Assembly (NCBI RefSeq): GCF_003795125.1
Contig: NZ_CP027783.1
Coordinates: 806,001-870,000, forward strand
Direction: 5' to 3'
Length of the DNA: 64,000 nucleotides
DNA from: Tetragenococcus osmophilus
GTDB lineage: Bacteria; Bacillota; Bacilli; Lactobacillales; Enterococcaceae
Below are positions 11,498-45,942 of this stretch, in pieces. The position numbers were made by a program, and so were the translations under genes. Positions within the stretch are counted from its first letter, which is position 1. Each line of letters starts with the position of its first letter. The notes beneath the pieces are model-generated. The model had not been told where the DNA came from. It worked only from the letters and a program-made list of their open reading frames with translations, and searched no databases.

Positions 11498-12358
11498 TTA
11501 GTTGCTCCAGATGTCACTAATAGGTATATCCACTTCTACTTTTGTTCCATCAAATTCATCGTCAATATATTCTTGTATCTCAGGGTCATGATAAACTTCG
11601 CCTAGTTTTTGTAATTTTTCTTCATCTTGGCGACCTTCTTTAACAGCAATAACATTTAGATTAATTCGATTAGATTCATCTGCTTTTTCTCGGTAAATCG
11701 CATCATTTAATACATTTAGCCCACCTTCAAGAGCCACAGTGTTACTAATCAATGCTATATCTACATCTTGTAAAACACGCGGACCAGTCACATCATCAAT
11801 TAATTCAAATTCTAAATTTTTAGGGTTTTCACTCACATCATCTGGCGTACCTACACCATCATCAAAATCTTCACTTAGTTCAATCAACCCAGCCGCCTCC
11901 AGCACCCGAAGCCCTCTTGCTGTGTTCGCAGGATTATCAGCTAAGGCTACTACGTCATGATCGTTTACTTCATCAATGGATTCATACTCATCTGAATAGA
12001 TTCCCATTGGTTCAACATAAGTTGTAGCTATTGGAACTAACTTTTCTGCACTATCTTCATTGAAACTCTCCAAATAACCCATTGACTGAAAAGCATTAGC
12101 ATCAATATCTTCGTCTGCAGTTGCGTTATTTTTTGCTGCACCGCCATCAATATCTTCAACTTCAATTTGAATTCCAGCATCTTCAGCCGCATCTGAATTT
12201 GCAATAAAACTCCAAATCTGCGCATCAGCACTTTCAGAACCAATATGAACTACTTGATCATCACTTTCTTCAGTTGTCCCTTGATTATTTTCACTACTGC
12301 AAGCACCAAGAGTAACCACTATTACAAGGCTTAAAAAAACAACCCACTTCTTCTTCAT
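11498..12358 (-). CDS. metQ: Methionine-binding lipoprotein MetQ
   Basis: A 286-residue substrate-binding lipoprotein of the NlpA/MetQ family. The lipobox is TLGAC with the lipidated cysteine at residue 20, and the mature part begins with a very acidic Ser/Asn/Asp/Glu tether. Recognisable MetQ segments include DANAFQSMGYLESFN, VALADNPANTARGLRVLEAAGLI and the C-terminal ISDIWSN. I start at ATG 12358 (MKKKWVVF) behind GGGGAG. It is the last gene of the methionine T-box operon. The partner ATPase (MetN) and permease (MetI) genes are not here, so it must use components encoded elsewhere. The acidic surface fits a salt-adapted extracellular protein. Confidence 0.9.
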   Translation of the reverse strand: MKKKWVVFLSLVIVVTLGACSSENNQGTTEESDDQVVHIGSESADAQIWSFIANSDAAEDAGIQIEVEDIDGGAAKNNATADEDIDANAFQSMGYLESFNEDSAEKLVPIATTYVEPMGIYSDEYESIDEVNDHDVVALADNPANTARGLRVLEAAGLIELSEDFDDGVGTPDDVSENPKNLEFELIDDVTGPRVLQDVDIALISNTVALEGGLNVLNDAIYREKADESNRINLNVIAVKEGRQDEEKLQKLGEVYHDPEIQEYIDDEFDGTKVEVDIPISDIWSN

Positions 12359-12458
12359 CAAAAATCTCCCCAATCCAAGTAAAACAAATACATTCCGAAA
12401 ATTCTGTGAATTTCAATTAAGACAACTTCAGCAATAAGCATAAGTTCAAAATCTGCTT

Positions 12459-13577
12459 TTAAACAGATTGCTCTTGCCAAACTTCCTTAGCCGTATCAAC
12501 AAGTAAGTTAATTTTTTTCCATTGGTCTTCTTCAGTAAGATCATTGCCTTCTTGTGTCGAAGAAAAACCGCATTGCGCACCTAAACACAATTGTTCAAAA
12601 GGAACATATTGACTAGCTTTTTCAATCCGCTCTTTTAATTCTGCTTTACCTTCTAGTTCTGGGGTTTTTGTAGTAATTAGTCCTAGAACTACTCGCTGAT
12701 CTTTGATATTTTCCAAAGGTTCAAAACTACCTGAACGTTCGTCATCAAACTCTAAAAAGAACCCATTGAACGCCTGAATAGCGAGTAGACGGCCAGCAAT
12801 TTTGTCATAAGACCCATTATATAACCAGCGAGATTGGAAATTTCCTTTGCAAAAATGGAAAGTCACCGCTAAATCTTCAGGTTTTTTTGCTAAAACAGCT
12901 TCGGTGATATCACCAAATTCTTGAATTAATTCGTCAGGATTATAACCATTTTCCTGAATCAAACTACGGAAATGATCATCAAATAAAGCACCCCAACTGG
13001 TATCATCTAACTGCAAATATCGACAGCCAGCATCGTAAAAAGCTTGGATCGCTTCCTGATAAGTTGAGATCAGGTCTAAAATAAAATCATCTTTTGATGT
13101 ATACGCTGGATTCTCGTGATATCTTTTTGACAAAATAAAAGAATCAAGAAAAATCATATTCGGACCAGGAATTGTTTGTTTTGCTACTACACCTTCGGCA
13201 TCCGCATATTTTTTGGTAAAACGAAAATGATCTAAAAATGGATGACTCTGGTTGAAAGAGAGCTTCCCACTAACAAACGTCCCTTGTGCTTTTGAAGCAA
13301 CTCCAAAAGCTCTGGCTTCAAAGTCATAAACAGTGATGCCATTTAAACCAGCAATAAAATCTAAATGCCACCAACGTCGACGAAATTCGCCATCAGTTAC
13401 AGCCTTTAAGCCTAGCTCTTTTTCTTTTTTTATTAATTTGATAATCGATTCGTCTTCTACTTTCGTTAATGCTTCTTGGGTGATTTCCCCTTGTTTCAAT
13501 TGTTCTCTTGCCTTTTTTAACTTTTCCGGACGTAAAAAACTTCCTACAATATCCCAACGAAATGGTATTTTCTTCAC
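12459..13577 (-). CDS. MetE-like (core) methionine synthase family protein, paralogue 1
   Basis: A 372-residue protein matching only the catalytic C-terminal half of cobalamin-independent methionine synthase, like Bacillus YxjG/YxjH. The zinc ligands of MetE are conserved: HFC (His and Cys), the Glu in FFLEFDDERSG and the Cys in CLGAQCGFSST. It probably methylates homocysteine to methionine, but the methyl donor of this short form is uncertain. I start at GTG 13577, six bases after AGAGGG; the longer frame from 13634 adds a hydrophobic stretch without a ribosome site. It is third in a T-box operon with luxS and metQ, which supports a methionine role. A paralogue lies at 24588-25733. Confidence 0.83.
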   Translation of the reverse strand: MKKIPFRWDIVGSFLRPEKLKKAREQLKQGEITQEALTKVEDESIIKLIKKEKELGLKAVTDGEFRRRWWHLDFIAGLNGITVYDFEARAFGVASKAQGTFVSGKLSFNQSHPFLDHFRFTKKYADAEGVVAKQTIPGPNMIFLDSFILSKRYHENPAYTSKDDFILDLISTYQEAIQAFYDAGCRYLQLDDTSWGALFDDHFRSLIQENGYNPDELIQEFGDITEAVLAKKPEDLAVTFHFCKGNFQSRWLYNGSYDKIAGRLLAIQAFNGFFLEFDDERSGSFEPLENIKDQRVVLGLITTKTPELEGKAELKERIEKASQYVPFEQLCLGAQCGFSSTQEGNDLTEEDQWKKINLLVDTAKEVWQEQSV

Positions 13578-13760
13578 ATGAATCCCTCTTTCTACTAAAA
13601 ATAAAGCTAGGACAAAGATGACTAGCATGTTCATACTTAAAGTGATAAAAAACTCATCCCTAACGCTTCTAATCTAAAACAGCTAAGGCTAAGAATAGAT
13701 AACTTGTCATAAACAACTGCTAGACAATACCTCTTGTCCCAGCTTTTATTTTCTTACAAA

Positions 13761-14534
13761 TTAATGCATCGTCATGCCACCAGTTACATTAAGCGCTTGT
13801 CCTGTCATGTAGCTAGCTAAAGGACTTGCTAAAAATAAAATAACATTTGCGACATCTTGCGTTGAACCAGTACGCCCTAAAGGTACTTGGCTTTGATCTT
13901 CCTCTAATACTTCTTGTGCTGTCATTCCACGAATAGCGCCACCTTCAACACGTTCTCGATGTTTCATTGGCGTTTCAACAATCCCAGGGCATACAGCGTT
14001 TACTAAAATTCCATCTGGAGCAACTTCCAATGCTAATGTTTTGCATAACCCTAAAACAGCATGCTTGGATGCCACATATCCTGACATCCCTTTATAACCA
14101 TTTTTCCCAGCTTGTGAAGCCACAAAAATCACTCGACCCGGTTTTTGCTTGCGTTGCATTAAGCCAGTAACATATTTACTGCTTAAATAAGTGCCCCGAG
14201 TATTTACTGCAAGTACTTTATCAAAATCTACCGTACTACTTTCAGTTAAGAAATCTACGGTGGAAATACCGGCCACATTGACAAGTATATCTGGGATAAG
14301 CGCTTGCTCTTCTAATTGCTGAACTAAATAAATTATTTCTTCTTCTTCAGCAATATCTAAGTGTATCTTATAATTGTGTTCATTAAGTTTTTGTAATTTG
14401 GCTTCTTCAAAAGCAATATCACAAGCAATCACAGTCGCCCCTTCATCTTGGAAGGTTTCTACAACACTTTGCCCAATACCTTGTGACGCACCGATGACTA
14501 AAGCTATCTTCCCTTTCAGCTCATTAAAATACAT
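13761..14534 (-). CDS. Short-chain dehydrogenase/reductase (SDR) of unknown substrate
   Basis: A 257-residue classical SDR. The cofactor motif is GASQGIGQ near residue 16, followed by NVAG (usual NNAG), a catalytic Ser in FVASQAG, and YVASK with the Tyr and Lys. The C-terminus has the VTGGMTMH end typical of FabG- or sorbitol/glucose dehydrogenase-like enzymes. An Asp after the second strand (ACDIA) suggests NAD rather than NADP. It starts 12 bases after luxS and must share the methionine-starvation leader. No sulfur-pathway SDR of this kind is familiar to me, so its link to methionine or AI-2 is an open question. Confidence 0.8.
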   Translation of the reverse strand: MYFNELKGKIALVIGASQGIGQSVVETFQDEGATVIACDIAFEEAKLQKLNEHNYKIHLDIAEEEEIIYLVQQLEEQALIPDILVNVAGISTVDFLTESSTVDFDKVLAVNTRGTYLSSKYVTGLMQRKQKPGRVIFVASQAGKNGYKGMSGYVASKHAVLGLCKTLALEVAPDGILVNAVCPGIVETPMKHRERVEGGAIRGMTAQEVLEEDQSQVPLGRTGSTQDVANVILFLASPLASYMTGQALNVTGGMTMH

Positions 14535-14546
14535 CCAATGTGCCTC

Positions 14547-15020
14547 CTAAACGACATGACGTTCAAAAGGGTCATCGCTAATACCATCTTCTAAAACAAG
14601 TTTAGCGTACTCTTTAGCTGAAAATAGTGAATGATCACGGTAATTACCACAACTAGTAATATCTACCCCTTGCACATCTTCCCATTTTGTTTCATAGGCA
14701 ATTGTTTTAAGAGATTCGCTCAAAGCTTGAGCAACTTCTGTTGGGGTATATTCTCCCCAAACAATTAAATGAAAGCCAGTACGACAACCAAATGGAGAAC
14801 AATCAATAATACCGTCCAAACGGTCACGTAATAAATCTGCTAATAAATGTTCAATTGTGTGTAAACCTGCCGTTGGAAGTTCTTTTTCATTTGGTTGCAA
14901 GAAACGTAAATCATAATTAGAGATTACATCCCCTTTTTTACCTGTTTCTTTGCCAATTAAACGCACATAAGGTGCCTTTACTTTTGTATGATCTAATGTA
15001 AAACTTTCTACTTCCGCCAT
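14547..15020 (-). CDS. luxS: S-ribosylhomocysteine lyase LuxS
   Basis: A 157-residue enzyme that cleaves S-ribosylhomocysteine to homocysteine and DPD, the precursor of the AI-2 signal. The metal ligands are seen as HTIEH (His54 and His58) and Cys125 in [11 protein letters not shown]; the catalytic Cys80 is in [10 protein letters not shown]. Length is normal. AGGAGG lies ahead of the ATG. It is the first gene behind a methionine T-box leader, so the homocysteine it makes can be methylated by the MetE-like enzyme two genes on. A companion nucleosidase (pfs) is not in the window. Confidence 0.97.
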
Positions 15021-15052
15021 TTTTCTTTCCTCCTCAAAATATTTTTAGAGAT

Positions 15053-15334
15053 AATAAAAAATCTCCATCCCTTTGCCTACCAAACTTGATAAACAAAGGG
15101 ACGAAGACTTTCGCGTTACCACCCTTATTTACATAAACTTTACAGTTAATGCCTCAACGGTACCTTTAGATACCCGGCAGTTTATCGGCTGCTCACCCGT
15201 TTATCCAGCGCTAACTGCATAAAAAGCTTAGAGTTCATCTTCACTACTTTTTACTTGTTCCCTTTTCCACCAACCGGGTTCTCTTTAACAAGCCCAAGAG
15301 CTACTCTTCTCTGTCTTAGCTTCATTTATGATTT
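15053..15334 (-). ncRNA. T-box riboswitch leader, methionine type, upstream of luxS
   Basis: On the minus strand the conserved T-box AGGGTGGTAACGCG lies at about 15111-15124. It is followed by a terminator stem (CCCTTTG with CAAAGGG) and a T run at 15055-15062. Upstream, stem I carries the loop context GAAGATGAACTC with a likely ATG (Met) specifier at 15236-15238, followed by the usual A. Uncharged initiator/elongator Met-tRNA should favour the antiterminator and open transcription of luxS, SDR, metE-like and metQ. Confidence 0.9.
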
Positions 15335-15340
15335 GTGAAC

Positions 15341-15369
15341 AGTATAGACAAGAATAATAAAAATGTCAA
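15341..15369 (-). promoter_or_regulatory. Promoter of the luxS T-box operon
   Basis: A perfect TTGACA (15364-15369), 17-bp spacer and TATACT (15341-15346) on the minus strand, just upstream of the T-box leader. The left end of the neighbouring insertion sequence is only about 30 bp further upstream. Confidence 0.8.
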
Positions 15370-15397
15370 GTTACCTTTTTTTATTGTATGTGTCAAG

Positions 15398-17016
15398 TTT
15401 ATTGAGGTTGAATAAAAAAACCGTCTTTTGGGCAGACACGAAGTTATTTTTCAACCTCACTTTCGTTCGGTTCGCCCTCATCCTCTCTAACAAAAACAAG
15501 TTTTTATTAGAGATAATTCGGGGTCATTATTAATTGATTTAGTCCTTTGGCGAATTGGCCTAAAGGGGCACTTTTCGCTTTTCCTTCGCCCATTTGCCCT
15601 TTAAACGCACCTTCATGAGCTTGAAAGTTAGGTTTTTTCTGTACCCAACGTTTCATAGCTTGCCAACGCTTTTCTTGAGCGACGACGTCGTCCGGAAGGG
15701 CTTCGTATTGGTTCAACCAACCTTCAAATTCTTGATTCCGTAAACTATCTATGACACGAATCATGGCTTGGGCCCCGGTTTTTGTCCATAAACGACCTTG
15801 GCGCTTCATGCGATAGGTGATTTTTCGATGGGTACTTTCGATCGTGCCAATACATGCTTGGGGATCCCTGATTCCTCGTGCTTTCAATGATTTTAAATAA
15901 GGCCAACTTCTTTGAAGATAGTGATGCAGCAAACGTAAATGTTCTAAAGCCTCGGCTTCCTTTTCTTCAATCAAGCTTTCCGAGGTATCTAAAACAAGCT
16001 GGACCTCTTGCCAATCATAATGTTCAATCGCTCGTATCATACGATGTTGGAGTTGGGGAACAAAAGGCATTCGTTCTTTGATTTTACGATGGACATGGTA
16101 TCGATCACGGAAGTGTTCATGACGCAAACAACCTAAAGCCAGTTCATCAAACACGGCTTTTTCATAGCCTGAACCGCCGTCACTATTGGAAATGACAACG
16201 GTATGACTTAAATCATAATAGGCTTGAAGATAGGCCATCATTTCTTTGTATGCTTTTTGCCGATTCAGATGACTCACAAAGTGCGGGGCGATCATTTCCG
16301 AGCGATTCCCGACTTTCTGGCTGCCTTCACATACTTGAAAACGATGGACTTCAAGAGATTGTTTCTTCTGTCCGCCAATCTTTACGCCGTCTCCTTCCAA
16401 ATATAAATAAGGCACTTTTTTCTTGATGATCACGCCGTCATAACGACTTTCATGCGTGCTTCGTGTCTGGACCAGTTCACCGGTTTTAACCACCAACTGT
16501 TGCACATTTTGATGACTCATCTGCCAAGAAGTTAAACAGTCAATCGCTTGAGAAACATGACGATAAACCATGATACTGCCTAATTGAGAGACGTTTCGCA
16601 GGACTAGCGAACTATAACGAAGCCCTTTTCGAATCCCTAGAAATTCATCTAAGGGGTAACGAATGTCATTGGCTTGATTTTTCATTCGTCGACGAACATA
16701 GGTCACGGTCCCAAACAAAAAGGTGATGGTTCTCTCGCTTTTACGATCGACGCGAAAGCCTTCTTTCTTACATTGCGCACAAATTTCTTCATCAAGCGTT
16801 TGAAACGCTAGTTGGGTAATTGTCGTGATCAATTGCGTAAAAAAGATCATCATAGCTCTTTCTCTTGCTAAAAAATTCGTTTCCTTCTTCATTACTTCCA
16901 CTAAATCTGTTACAATAGATTCCATAAGAAACCGCCTTTGTTCATTAGTGCCTGTCACAGCCCAATGAATAGAGTAACGGTTTCTTTTTTATTCGTCTAG
17001 AGGGAACCTCAATAAA
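15398..17016 (-). mobile_element. ISLre2-family insertion sequence
   Basis: The element is bounded by a perfect 12-bp inverted repeat, TTTATTGAGGTT at 15398-15409 and its complement at 17005-17016. Both ends continue with a GAATAAAAAA-ACCG motif, offset by about 10 bp. It encloses one transposase gene. I could not identify a target-site duplication, so the exact outer edges may be a few bases inside the repeat. Confidence 0.8.
15507..16958 (-). CDS. ISLre2-family transposase (UPF0236)
   Basis: A 483-residue transposase of the ISLre2 / UPF0236 family. Features are the N-terminal zinc-like CAQCKKEG segment followed by RTITFLFGTVTYVRRRM, then the catalytic core with YLEGDGVKI and ISNSDGGSGYEKAVFD, and HFRDRYHVHRKIKERMP. 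Length is normal and the frame is intact, so it may be active. It fills nearly all of the element. Codon use with many G/C-rich codons differs slightly from the host genes around it, as is common for transposases. Confidence 0.9.
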   Translation of the reverse strand: MTGTNEQRRFLMESIVTDLVEVMKKETNFLARERAMMIFFTQLITTITQLAFQTLDEEICAQCKKEGFRVDRKSERTITFLFGTVTYVRRRMKNQANDIRYPLDEFLGIRKGLRYSSLVLRNVSQLGSIMVYRHVSQAIDCLTSWQMSHQNVQQLVVKTGELVQTRSTHESRYDGVIIKKKVPYLYLEGDGVKIGGQKKQSLEVHRFQVCEGSQKVGNRSEMIAPHFVSHLNRQKAYKEMMAYLQAYYDLSHTVVISNSDGGSGYEKAVFDELALGCLRHEHFRDRYHVHRKIKERMPFVPQLQHRMIRAIEHYDWQEVQLVLDTSESLIEEKEAEALEHLRLLHHYLQRSWPYLKSLKARGIRDPQACIGTIESTHRKITYRMKRQGRLWTKTGAQAMIRVIDSLRNQEFEGWLNQYEALPDDVVAQEKRWQAMKRWVQKKPNFQAHEGAFKGQMGEGKAKSAPLGQFAKGLNQLIMTPNYL

Positions 17017-17198
17017 TTTTACACTTAGTTTTTTATTTGAGAAGATTATCCAACCATTTTTAGCCAAGAAAAAGTTTATCTGTAACTCGTGTAAAAGCGG
17101 TCTCTTAATAAGAAAAATTATGTTACTATAATTTATATGTACGTAAAAACAATAAACATAACAATTTAATATACTAGTAATTTATATCAAGCTATTTT

Positions 17199-24587: not shown

Positions 24588-25733
24588 TCAATTGCCCCAA
24601 ACTTCTGCAGCAACTTCTTGTAATAAGTTAATTTTTTCCCATTGTTCTTTTTCAGTTAACTGATTCCCTTCCTCGGTGGAAGCAAACCCGCATTGCGGAC
24701 TAATACTTAAGTTTTCCAATGGAACATATTCCGTGGCTTCTTGAATCCTTTTTTTGATTTCTTCTTTATTTTCTAACTCTGGAAATTTTGAAGTCACTAG
24801 TCCTAAAACAATTTTACTGTCTTTGTTATTCCAATAACGTAAAGGAGCAAAATCACCAGCTCGGTCAGAATCATACTCTAAGAAAAAACCATCATAGTTT
24901 GTCGCAAATAGTTCTTTAGCAATTGGTTCATATCCTCCTGAAAATAACCAAGAAGAGGCATGATTTCCTCTACAAATATGTGTAGTAAGTACTAAATCTT
25001 CTGGTTTATCTTCCAAGGCTTCGTTAATAATATCCCTACAAATTTGCGCTACACTTGTAGGATTAATCCCACTTTCTTGCATCTCTTTTCTTTTATCAGC
25101 ATCGGCTAGAAATGCCCAGTTGGTGTCATCAAATTGTAAGTAGCGACAACCTTTTTCATAGTAAGCCTTAATAACATCTTTGTAAGTTTGTGCTAAATCA
25201 TGATAAAACTCAGATAGGTCTGGATACATTTGACGAATTCTTGAACTACCATTATTTGCTAATAACTCTTGACGCAAAATCATATTAGGGCTAGGTACAG
25301 AGGTTTTAGCAATGGCATTTTCATCATTTTCTACTTTATCTTTTAAAAAAGCAAAATCTTCTAAAAATGGATGATTTTTATTAAAAGAAATTCGATCAGT
25401 TACACGAATATTATAAGATGGCGCTGCTTTCCCATGAAATTGTTGGTTATATCCTTCTTCAGGCACATAACCTTCAACTCCATTTAGATGTTCTAAAAAA
25501 TCTAAATGCCAAAAACTACGTCGGAGCTCTCCATCTGTAATTCCGTATAAACCTACTCTTTTTTCTTGTTCAACTAATTTCTCTATTTCTTCATCTTCGA
25601 CTACACGAAGTTGTTCTTTAGTGATATCTCCACTAGTAAAACCTTTCCGTGCTATCTTTAAACGTTCTGGTCGCAGGAAACTCCCCACATGGTCTACAGT
25701 AAATGGTATATCTTTTTGATTAATTGTCTTCAT
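24588..25733 (-). CDS. MetE-like (core) methionine synthase family protein, paralogue 2
   Basis: A 381-residue protein of the same short MetE type as the one at 12459-13577. It starts DHVGSFLRPERLKIARKG after a short lead and keeps the zinc ligands HIC in LVLTTHICRGN, the Glu in FFLEYDSDRAG and the Cys in ISPQCGFAST. A GGAGGAG site precedes ATG 25733. It is a single gene with its own methionine T-box, promoter and terminator. Two such paralogues under separate T-boxes suggest differing methyl donors or acceptors, or dosage. Neither is a full 750-residue MetE. Confidence 0.85.
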   Translation of the reverse strand: MKTINQKDIPFTVDHVGSFLRPERLKIARKGFTSGDITKEQLRVVEDEEIEKLVEQEKRVGLYGITDGELRRSFWHLDFLEHLNGVEGYVPEEGYNQQFHGKAAPSYNIRVTDRISFNKNHPFLEDFAFLKDKVENDENAIAKTSVPSPNMILRQELLANNGSSRIRQMYPDLSEFYHDLAQTYKDVIKAYYEKGCRYLQFDDTNWAFLADADKRKEMQESGINPTSVAQICRDIINEALEDKPEDLVLTTHICRGNHASSWLFSGGYEPIAKELFATNYDGFFLEYDSDRAGDFAPLRYWNNKDSKIVLGLVTSKFPELENKEEIKKRIQEATEYVPLENLSISPQCGFASTEEGNQLTEKEQWEKINLLQEVAAEVWGN

Positions 25734-25759
25734 TATATCTCCTCCTACTAATTTTTTAT

Positions 25760-26022
25760 ACTAAAAAACCCTTTTGCCAGCTTAACTGACAAAAGGGCGA
25801 TTCAACGCGGTACCACCTTTTTTTAACTTTCTTTTGACATGCAAATTCTTATTTTATGTCAAATATCTTTTTAACGATAGATAATACCGCTTTTGCTTAC
25901 TTATCACCAAAAGCTCCTCCTTAGCCATTTTCAACTTCTTATAATCAACACTTTTCACCTACCAGCGTTTCTCTGAGATTATTTAAAGTTTACTTACTAA
26001 ATCATCAGAAACTTATATAATT
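25760..26022 (-). ncRNA. T-box riboswitch leader, methionine type, upstream of metE-like paralogue 2
   Basis: The minus strand has the T-box AAAGGTGGTACCGCG (about 25805-25820), followed by a terminator with arms CCCTTTTGTCA and TGGCAAAAGGG and a T run at 25763-25768. Stem I upstream holds GAAAATGGCTAAGG with a likely ATG specifier at 25926-25928. The 400-bp gap between metE-like and rpoC is fully explained by this leader, its promoter and the rpoC terminator. Confidence 0.9.
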
Positions 26023-44107: not shown

Positions 44108-45942
44108 ATCGAGTAGGGCGAAATCAATCGCCCTCTCACGTCACCTGGACATACGGTTCCGTATCCGGCGACTCCATTATGAATATATGTTATGTCTATA
44201 TTGGTAGTAATCTAAACAACTGACTAGGCCTGCTTGGCCTAGTTTTTGTTTAGTTATTGCCCTTCTTACACAGGTTTTGGTAGCTACCCACTGGTAGTGG
44301 TTTCCTGCGTACGATGTTAGTTTAGCTAAGCTCTTATTTACACCTAACTTTTGTAATCCCCATTGTCTCTTGGAGGGAACCTTCCACATCTTCCAGACGA
44401 TGGTTCGCAATCGCGTTCTTAAATGGGCGTCGATCCGTTCCATCTTGGCTTTCATGGACGAGCTGGAAAAGTAATTTATCCATCCGCGGATGACTTCATT
44501 TAACTTTTCCAGCCTCTTTCTAAAGTTTATTGACCATTTTCTTTGAGTTAACATTTTGAGTTTTTTTCTCGAATTTTCGGACAGAGTCCTCATGAGGTCG
44601 GCTCATCCAGCTTTTGGCTTTAGTGTCGTAATAGAAACTAAATCCTAAATATTTTAGCTGGCTGGGCCGCGTAACCTTTGATTTGGTTCCATTAACTTTT
44701 AGCCCTAACTTATTTTCAATCCAACGAATGACTGAATGCATCACTCGATTGGCACTTGTTCGGCTTTTAACCATGATGAGACAATCATCGGCGTATCTCA
44801 CAAAGGCGAGCCCTCGGCTCTCAAGCTCTTTGTCCAGTTCATTTAGCATGATATTACTAAGAATGGGCGATAAATTCCCTCCTTGTGGGGCTCCTCGATC
44901 CGTTGGGTGGTATTCATCGGCGACCATGACACCTGCTTTGAGATATTTTCGAATAAGCGATTCTGTGTCTCCGTCTTGGATCATACGATGTACAAGACTC
45001 ATCAGCCGGTCTTGAGGAACGTTATCAAAGAATTTTTCTAGATCTATATCAACGATCCATTGATAACCTTCATTGATCGTCTTCAATAATTGATTGACGG
45101 CCATTTCACAATTTCTGTTCGGACGAAATCCATAGCTAAATTCCGAAAAGTGGGATTCGCATATGGGTGTTATAACCTGAACAATGGCCTGCTGAATCAC
45201 GCGGTCTATTGTTGTAGGTATACCGAGTTTTCGTTTCCCACCATCTGACTTTGGGATCCCAACTCTCTTTACAGGTTGGGGCTTGTAGTGTCGCTCTCTT
45301 ATTTGTTGACAGATCGTTGCCCAGTTGTCTTGAATATAGGCATGAAGCTCGTCGAGCGTGACTTCGTCAACGCCGCTGGCTCCTTTATTTGCCCGGACTT
45401 TTTTATAAGCCTCATTCATATTTTGCCGGTCAAGGATACGTTCTAACATCTTCGACATAATGTGCGCGACTCCTTTCCGCTTTTAAGTATTCGTCTTAGA
45501 TTGGCGTAGCTACCGACTCATTTACGTTTTGTCTACCACTACTATCAGACAGTACTTAAAACATACATTTTGTGTTGCACTATTCCATGGTTCAGTCCTT
45601 CGGAAACATGGTTTCCTACTATGACATCTGCTGACTTCTCACTATTCGTTGTTACTACTAAATCGTTAGTGAGACCTCACGGGATAAGTGTTATCTCTTT
45701 CCTCGTTTACCCATAAGGTTTACGCCACAAGATTACGGTTACCTTTTGGACTTTATCGCCTTTAGCCGACTTATCCGCTCGTAGCGCCTTCCTACCTTAT
45801 TCCTGTTCGTTGGGCCACGATTTCGCTATTGCTTCCTCTCTCCCGTGCCTCACAGCACGAAACTTGCAAGTCGCTTTGGGATTCGTTGGTAACGACGCTC
45901 CACAGAGACTTTCACTCTAGACATAACACATGCCCGTCATAC
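44108..45942 (-). mobile_element. Group IIC intron inserted behind the clpC terminator
   Basis: The minus-strand element begins GTATGACGGGCATG and runs into GTCTAGAGTGAAAGTCTC, like the start of the Oceanobacillus group IIC intron. A conserved AGAAGTCAGCAG-TGTCATAGTA block lies just before the reading frame. Domain V has a CGC triad (GTCGCCGGATACGGAACCG) and domain VI ends CTACTCGAT. The 480 bases upstream of the reverse transcriptase are the ribozyme domains I-IV, which explains this long non-coding stretch. The insertion point is the T tract of a perfect 13-bp terminator hairpin, the known target type of class C introns. Confidence 0.88.
44177..45458 (-). pseudogene. ltrA: Group II intron reverse transcriptase/maturase, frameshifted
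   Basis: The first frame (45458 to 44520) holds reverse transcriptase domains with SYGFRPNRNCE, GAPQGGNLSP and the catalytic FVRYADDCLI. The second frame (44593 to 44177) holds the end of the thumb and the maturase domain (RKWSINFRKRLEKLNEVIRGWINYF). They join at a run of seven A (44561-44567 read on the minus strand); with six A the frame would be continuous at 426 residues, the normal size for class C introns. No endonuclease domain, as usual for this class. Either a one-base insertion, a sequencing error, or slippage by polymerase restores it. Confidence 0.88.

Follow-up and report, generated by a model that had tools for sequence, protein, structure and literature searches.

Tetragenococcus osmophilus is a food-fermenting bacterium. 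We analyzed a 64,000-nucleotide stretch of its DNA (the window) in which luxS is the first gene of a putative operon on the minus strand. The order is promoter, methionine T-box, luxS, an SDR gene, a gene for a core MetE, and a gene for MetQ. The features are:

15341-15369, minus strand: sigma-70-type operon promoter, TTGACA-17-TATACT, 11 of 12 matches (pattern scan)
15094-15326, minus strand: T-box leader RF00230, full length (1-219), 75.4 bits
15236-15238, minus strand: specifier codon ATG (methionine), in a register conserved in aligned leaders
15112-15124, minus strand: T-box core GGGTGGTAACGCG (sequence, core motif)
15062-15107, minus strand: intrinsic T-box terminator, a 20-pair stem followed by TTTTTT (stem scan, fold)
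14547-15020, minus strand: luxS, S-ribosylhomocysteine lyase (NCBIfam and Pfam scores)
14543-14548, minus strand: AGGAGG of the SDR gene, overlapping the luxS stop codon TAG (sequence)
13761-14534, minus strand: SDR, luxS-partner dehydrogenase, proposed DPD reductase (family scores, conserved residues, model)
12459-13580, minus strand: core MetE-like methionine synthase without the N-terminal domain (above the NF005085 cut-off)
11498-12373, minus strand: MetQ/NlpA-type substrate-binding lipoprotein (Pfam Lipoprotein_9)

An earlier note on this DNA had placed luxS at the head of a methionine T-box operon with an SDR, a MetE-like enzyme and MetQ. We found the same arrangement: the leader matches RF00230 over its full length, has an AUG specifier and a terminator, and lies downstream from a promoter. 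The RF00230 match has an E-value of 1.3e-16 (501 bases searched). This T-box is overlooked by a default Rfam scan because its score of 75.4 bits is below the gathering score of 93, and in total 11 of the 22 T-boxes in the T. osmophilus genome fall below that score. The luxS leader has a fold z-score of -3.47, and none of 100 shuffled sequences was equally stable. We aligned ten leaders, from this locus and nine further genomes, and the register TGAA[AG]ATG was invariant in all ten. We also considered a specifier for another amino acid and rejected it, because GAT and TGA specifiers would be out of register with the ten aligned leaders. The UGGU in the T-box core GGGTGGTAACGCG presumably pairs with a tRNA ending in ACCA.

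The best promoter sits upstream of the T-box. There is a weaker promoter-like site (9 of 12 matches, 15079-15051) between the terminator and luxS. Such sites are not unusually common here; the 4.3-kb region has 11, and 13.1 were expected from shuffled sequences. The gating of luxS by a methionine T-box, with a predicted response to uncharged tRNA-Met, is well supported at the level of sequence. A shortage of methionine would apparently induce luxS.

Leaders of this type precede other methionine genes in the genome. The pattern GAA-N-ATG-R, judged by eye, is present in nine of the 22 T-boxes. The genes behind these ATG-type T-boxes encode MetN, O-acetylhomoserine sulfhydrylase, two NlpA/MetQ-type lipoproteins, core MetE and LuxS. 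Eight of the nine precede methionine genes. The ninth (L006, C1:1204268-1204511) has a transposase gene downstream of it, in the opposite orientation, and is perhaps an orphaned leader. Two pairs of these ATG-type T-boxes are in tandem, L002/L009 and L007/L022, before metN and before a gene for a MetQ/NlpA-type lipoprotein. Positions 24588-26014 of the window hold a second core MetE gene (24588-25733) with its own ATG-type T-box (L012).

The product of luxS scored 294.4 bits with PRK02260.3-1 (NCBIfam cut-off 272) and 177.4 bits with Pfam LuxS (cut-off 27). It is a member of the LuxS family and is predicted to form DPD and AI-2. We detected only one luxS copy in the genome. The core MetE is of the PRK06520/PRK06233 type. 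It scored 414.9 bits with NF005085, above the cut-off of 313, and 404.2 bits with NF004875, below the cut-off of 576. MetQ scored 211.8 bits with Pfam Lipoprotein_9 (cut-off 27) and was under the NCBIfam MetQ cut-offs. The gap between the SDR gene and metE is 180 nt, and we infer that the luxS-SDR transcript reaches core metE and metQ. This gap (13581-13760) contains an imperfect inverted repeat with AAAGCTGGGACAAGAGG as the side at 13730-13746, present in one copy in the window.

The SDR has the residues of an active enzyme. It matches Pfam adh_short_C2 with 183 bits. G15, G19 and G21 of the glycine-rich motif and the tetrad N111, S140, Y153 and K157 are invariant in a set of 28 sequences that includes copies away from luxS. 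The same is true of D39, which closes the second strand (34-39). An acidic residue after the second strand of a classical SDR gives a preference for NAD(H). These residues lead us to predict a catalytically active classical SDR that uses NAD(H). We also aligned 56 SDR proteins (55 distinct proteins longer than 200 aa and the window protein), in which 64 positions were at least 98% conserved, including K144-N145 and the C-terminal MTM. An SDR reading frame was obtained from 57 of 63 loci; L136 is without the SDR, and L141, L142, L144, L145 and L146 were left out of the alignment though tblastn shows the gene. The structural model has a mean pLDDT of 86.7. The value drops under 50 over the invariant stretches 142-147 and 254-257, which leaves the pocket unreadable.

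The family scores did not place the SDR in a named family. None of the 25 NCBIfam models listed for the window SDR reached its cut-off, and the same was true for two relatives. We rejected FabG 3-oxoacyl-ACP reductase (best FabG model 202.5, cut-off 296). Acetoin/diacetyl reductases and 2,3-butanediol dehydrogenases (TIGR02415 and others) are classical SDRs, some of which act on alpha-diketones, and are neighbours in sequence and fold; we rejected this assignment as well, since the window SDR scored 175.1 bits with TIGR02415, under the cut-off of 304.35. The closest solved folds were tied, with Z from 29.5 to 31.4 among the best 50 matches listed, and they span ketoacyl reductases to sugar-alcohol and butanediol dehydrogenases, so that the fold points to no one substrate.

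We found that the SDR gene is linked to luxS well beyond this strain. The earlier note had asked how conserved the gene order is, and homologues beside luxS in many genomes rule out a peculiarity of this strain. Among 105 Enterococcaceae genomes, 20 have the SDR (E 1e-50), in every case directly behind luxS on the same strand. Among 148 Paenibacillaceae genomes, luxS is in 14 and the SDR is in the same 14, adjacent in all; p is 7e-20 if genomes are taken as independent draws, and these genomes are related and fall in six genera. Of 395 Lactobacillales genomes, 325 carry luxS and 33 carry the SDR, and each of these 33 also has luxS (p = 0.0012). For Enterococcaceae by themselves the co-occurrence is weak (p = 0.086), since luxS is widespread in the family. 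Outside Enterococcaceae there were 19 Lactobacillales SDR matches: 14 have luxS immediately upstream, two are luxS-metQ-SDR, and three are SDR-metQ with luxS elsewhere in the genome. One Bacillaceae-like genus has luxS in 17 of 17 genomes and the SDR in seven, arranged as metE-SDR-transporter-luxS in two and as SDR-transporter with luxS elsewhere in five.

Together these are 60 SDR-bearing genomes (20 Enterococcaceae, 19 other Lactobacillales, 14 Paenibacillaceae and seven of the Bacillaceae-like genus), counted at E limits of 1e-50 or 1e-60 that leave out weaker homologues. In 48 of them luxS is immediately upstream of the SDR; in four the two share a cluster with one gene between them; in eight luxS is elsewhere, and no genome lacks it. 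A further 25 loci, several from the same genomes, were kept out of this total; luxS and the SDR are adjacent in 22, one is luxS-metQ-SDR, and two are distant matches (25-29% identity) without luxS. The gap from luxS to the SDR is -30 to 60 nt in 42 of the 50 loci measured.

The two proteins also have correlated divergence. LuxS and SDR distances gave r = 0.775 over 49 loci, and none of 2000 permutations was as high. We built a LuxS tree from 52 SDR-linked luxS and 17 unlinked luxS chosen from the loci at hand. The SDR label changes at least six times by well-supported branches and eight times on the best tree, compared to 15.4 times when shuffled; none of 500 shuffles was as low as observed. 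Long branches meet on this tree, and gain and loss of the SDR are not separable on it. LuxS evidently works without the SDR: in Enterococcaceae, 35 luxS copies share at least 69% identity with the window gene, and 15 of these had no SDR match. From these comparisons, the SDR is an accessory of luxS that has been gained or lost several times.

A patchy accessory could in principle be part of a selfish or chance operon that is carried horizontally without a shared reaction. The low frequency in Paenibacillaceae fits this. So do its presence in only two of 358 genomes in a phylum-wide sample at E 1e-80 (both in class Bacilli and both already among the loci found) and the Brevibacterium copy (L074), the one case outside the phylum. 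We nevertheless consider it very improbable. The same SDR family is near two LuxS lineages that are ~38% identical to each other, in differing surroundings, and the catalytic residues are invariant. We found no plasmid copies of the SDR in PLSDB at E 1e-50. Two reading frames in the loci appear to be broken in two, the SDR of L180 (4578-5344) and luxS of L061 (4523-4980). In L030, L035 and L036, a different SDR (34-38% identical) is upstream of a luxS without the partner SDR.

The make-up of the clusters varies around one theme, as judged from the gene neighbourhoods. Tetragenococcus has T-box-luxS-SDR, followed by metE and/or metQ in this genome and some others. Other Enterococcaceae have metE-luxS-SDR-metQ-pfs, luxS-SDR-metQ, or T-box-metE-metN-metI-metQ-luxS-SDR. 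A Paenibacillus cluster is metN-metI-luxS-SDR-metQ-pfs, and a Cohnella cluster is metN-metI-metQ-M20 amidohydrolase-luxS-SDR-pfs. luxS-SDR stands alone in some Paenibacillaceae and in Brevibacterium. Where pfs is a neighbour (Paenibacillus, Cohnella and some Enterococcaceae), it completes the SAH route. In L059, L060 and L147 (Cohnella and P. anaericanus) an M20-type amidohydrolase gene is between metQ and luxS. In L194-L200, which are loci of the Bacillaceae-like genus, the SDR gene is followed by a gene for a transporter of the Na+/H+-antiporter family (Pfam PF03553 in two), twice within metE-SDR-transporter-luxS.

A T-box precedes 18 of the 20 Enterococcaceae SDR clusters, identified by Rfam at this window and six loci and by the core motif plus ATG elsewhere. 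Of the two exceptions, L124 has the codon motif only and L130 has nothing within the stretch fetched. By pattern search only, eight of 19 other Lactobacillales loci have a T-box core with ATG. In the six Paenibacillaceae loci searched (E 0.01), neither a T-box nor another Rfam leader turned up at the cluster; the sole T-box match in those loci (L063) precedes thrS. Thus, T-box regulation of luxS-SDR is not general.

What might the SDR act on? LuxS releases homocysteine and DPD. DPD is the precursor of AI-2 and is a reactive alpha-diketone with a pentose skeleton. Because homocysteine has other sources as well, an enzyme linked to luxS itself points to DPD. The earlier note had suggested DPD, a sulfur compound or a methyl donor as substrate; of the three, the evidence favours DPD. 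One alternative is that the SDR acts on another methionine-salvage compound and is beside luxS because all of these genes serve methionine supply. Such a compound might be imported by MetQ or the Na+/H+-antiporter-type transporter, or might be tied to the methyl donor of core MetE. This would account for the SDR-metQ loci without an adjacent luxS (L169, L180 and L181), the SDR-transporter pairs in five genomes of the Bacillaceae-like genus, and the metE adjoining the SDR in L199 and L200. Against it are luxS-SDR runs without metQ, transporter or metE in L139, L140, L141 and L143 (Paenibacillaceae) and L074 (Brevibacterium), and an exact co-occurrence in Paenibacillaceae that is with luxS. We regard it as rather unlikely.

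We propose that this is a methionine-starvation operon in which luxS and the SDR are a metabolic unit that recovers homocysteine, reduces DPD and silences AI-2. We lean slightly toward this proposal. Uncharged tRNA-Met would bind the T-box leader and the terminator would be avoided. Antitermination would allow expression of luxS and its SDR neighbour, and probably of core metE and metQ as well. LuxS would release homocysteine from S-ribosylhomocysteine, MetE would methylate it, and MetQ would help to import methionine. The SDR, with NADH, would reduce DPD inside the cell to a trihydroxypentanone. The leader, its codon, the gene order, the conserved pairing with luxS, and the catalytic and NAD-type residues of the SDR are established from the DNA; starting from these, we infer the substrate, the direction of the reaction and the response to starvation. 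If the SDR is a DPD reductase, methionine hunger would induce homocysteine recovery together with DPD disposal, nearly the opposite of a signalling role. The role of the pair may be metabolic and not one of cell-to-cell communication.

Several observations do not sit easily with a DPD reductase. One is that 15 of the 35 same-type luxS copies in Enterococcaceae have no SDR match. In addition, the SDR is outside the luxS cluster in eight of the 60 genomes, beside metQ or the Na+/H+-antiporter-type transporter. It is also possible that the SDR converts DPD to a different signal or furanone, in which case cells short of methionine would release a modified AI-2. The same luxS-SDR linkage supports this, and the sequence does not separate it in any way from disposal, but a dedicated sensor or exporter was not a constant neighbour in the loci read. 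We think conversion to another signal distinctly unlikely.

The earlier note had also tied quorum signalling to methionine hunger. AI-2 would then rise as a signal when methionine is short, and the SDR would be incidental. luxS as the first gene behind the T-box speaks for this. The yield of AI-2 is also tied to the supply of SAH, and this supply is expected to fall when methionine is short. The SDR may remove DPD, and its conservation speaks against an incidental gene. A similar unit has been described: in the part of PMC6004538 available, yxjH-luxS of L. paracasei and L. rhamnosus is reported to be under a methionine T-box (citing Rodionov 2004 and Lebeer 2007). As predicted for our locus, a methionine T-box, a core MetE and luxS are in one transcription unit. 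The difference is that luxS is first here and second there, and that no SDR is named in the yxjH-luxS unit in that part of the paper. In L. paracasei, the one relative with measurements considered here, luxS was, according to the same text, unresponsive to methionine, though behind yxjH it has a second promoter of its own (PMC6004538). For these three reasons (an unresponsive luxS in L. paracasei, an expected fall in SAH supply and possible removal of DPD) the signalling claim is unsupported, and we judge a rise in AI-2 as a hunger signal to be improbable. The link between luxS and the methionine T-box is already known; the SDR partner is the new part.

To our knowledge there is no sequence family of DPD or AI-2 reductases. 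The LsrK, LsrF and LsrG proteins of enteric bacteria are dedicated to AI-2 removal; they work on AI-2 that has been imported and phosphorylated, and they do not belong to the SDRs. Human DCXR is a member of the SDRs with no link to LuxS. It is described, in the portion of PMC12921845 available, as a diacetyl and L-xylulose reductase. QQ-2 is a metagenome-derived AI-2-quenching SDR of 257 aa that, in the part of PMC4942472 available, oxidised NADH with a furanone form of AI-2 (6 mU/mg). The authors considered AI-2 reduction likely and had not directly demonstrated it. As a precedent, QQ-2 is imperfect: it is a different SDR, near 3-hydroxy-2-methylbutyryl-CoA dehydrogenase, with low and broad activity (also on AHL), and it came from a screen and not from linkage to luxS (PMC4942472). 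Alpha-diketone-reducing SDRs do exist, and with DCXR and QQ-2 as precedents, the tie to luxS and the residues lead us to propose an NADH-dependent DPD reductase. The enzyme might also run in the reverse direction. Searches of the open-licence literature turned up neither a pairing of luxS with this SDR nor a DPD reductase linked to luxS. This might be the first dedicated luxS-linked DPD (AI-2) reductase, and its gene might mark a purely metabolic LuxS whose own AI-2 is silenced, with both steps induced by methionine hunger. We hold this fuller claim tentatively, at somewhat less than an even chance.

It has long been disputed whether LuxS works in signalling or only in recycling, with a by-product that leaks out. 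If a conserved partner destroys this by-product, its gene would be a marker of metabolic LuxS. If our proposal is true, presence of the SDR gene would predict species that are luxS-positive and AI-2-poor, and the SDR would supply an AI-2-quenching enzyme and a simple enzyme assay. Such a partner would also be a reason not to deduce quorum sensing from the presence of luxS by itself, a step taken for P. polymyxa in PMC4209062. The P. polymyxa relatives P. terrae, P. brasilensis and P. ottowii carry the SDR.

Two mobile elements are in the window. An ISLre2 element (15387-17027) has a transposase gene at 15507-16958 and inverted arms at 15387-15409 and 17005-17027, and it ends ~20 bp before the -35 box that serves luxS, on the upstream side. 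We found no ISLre2 match at the corresponding place in T. muriaticus DSM 15685 (L053), a close relative with luxS 100% identical and the SDR 95% identical. Positions 44177-45859 hold a group II intron (Rfam D1D4-3 and D1D4-1), with open reading frames that resemble reverse transcriptases.
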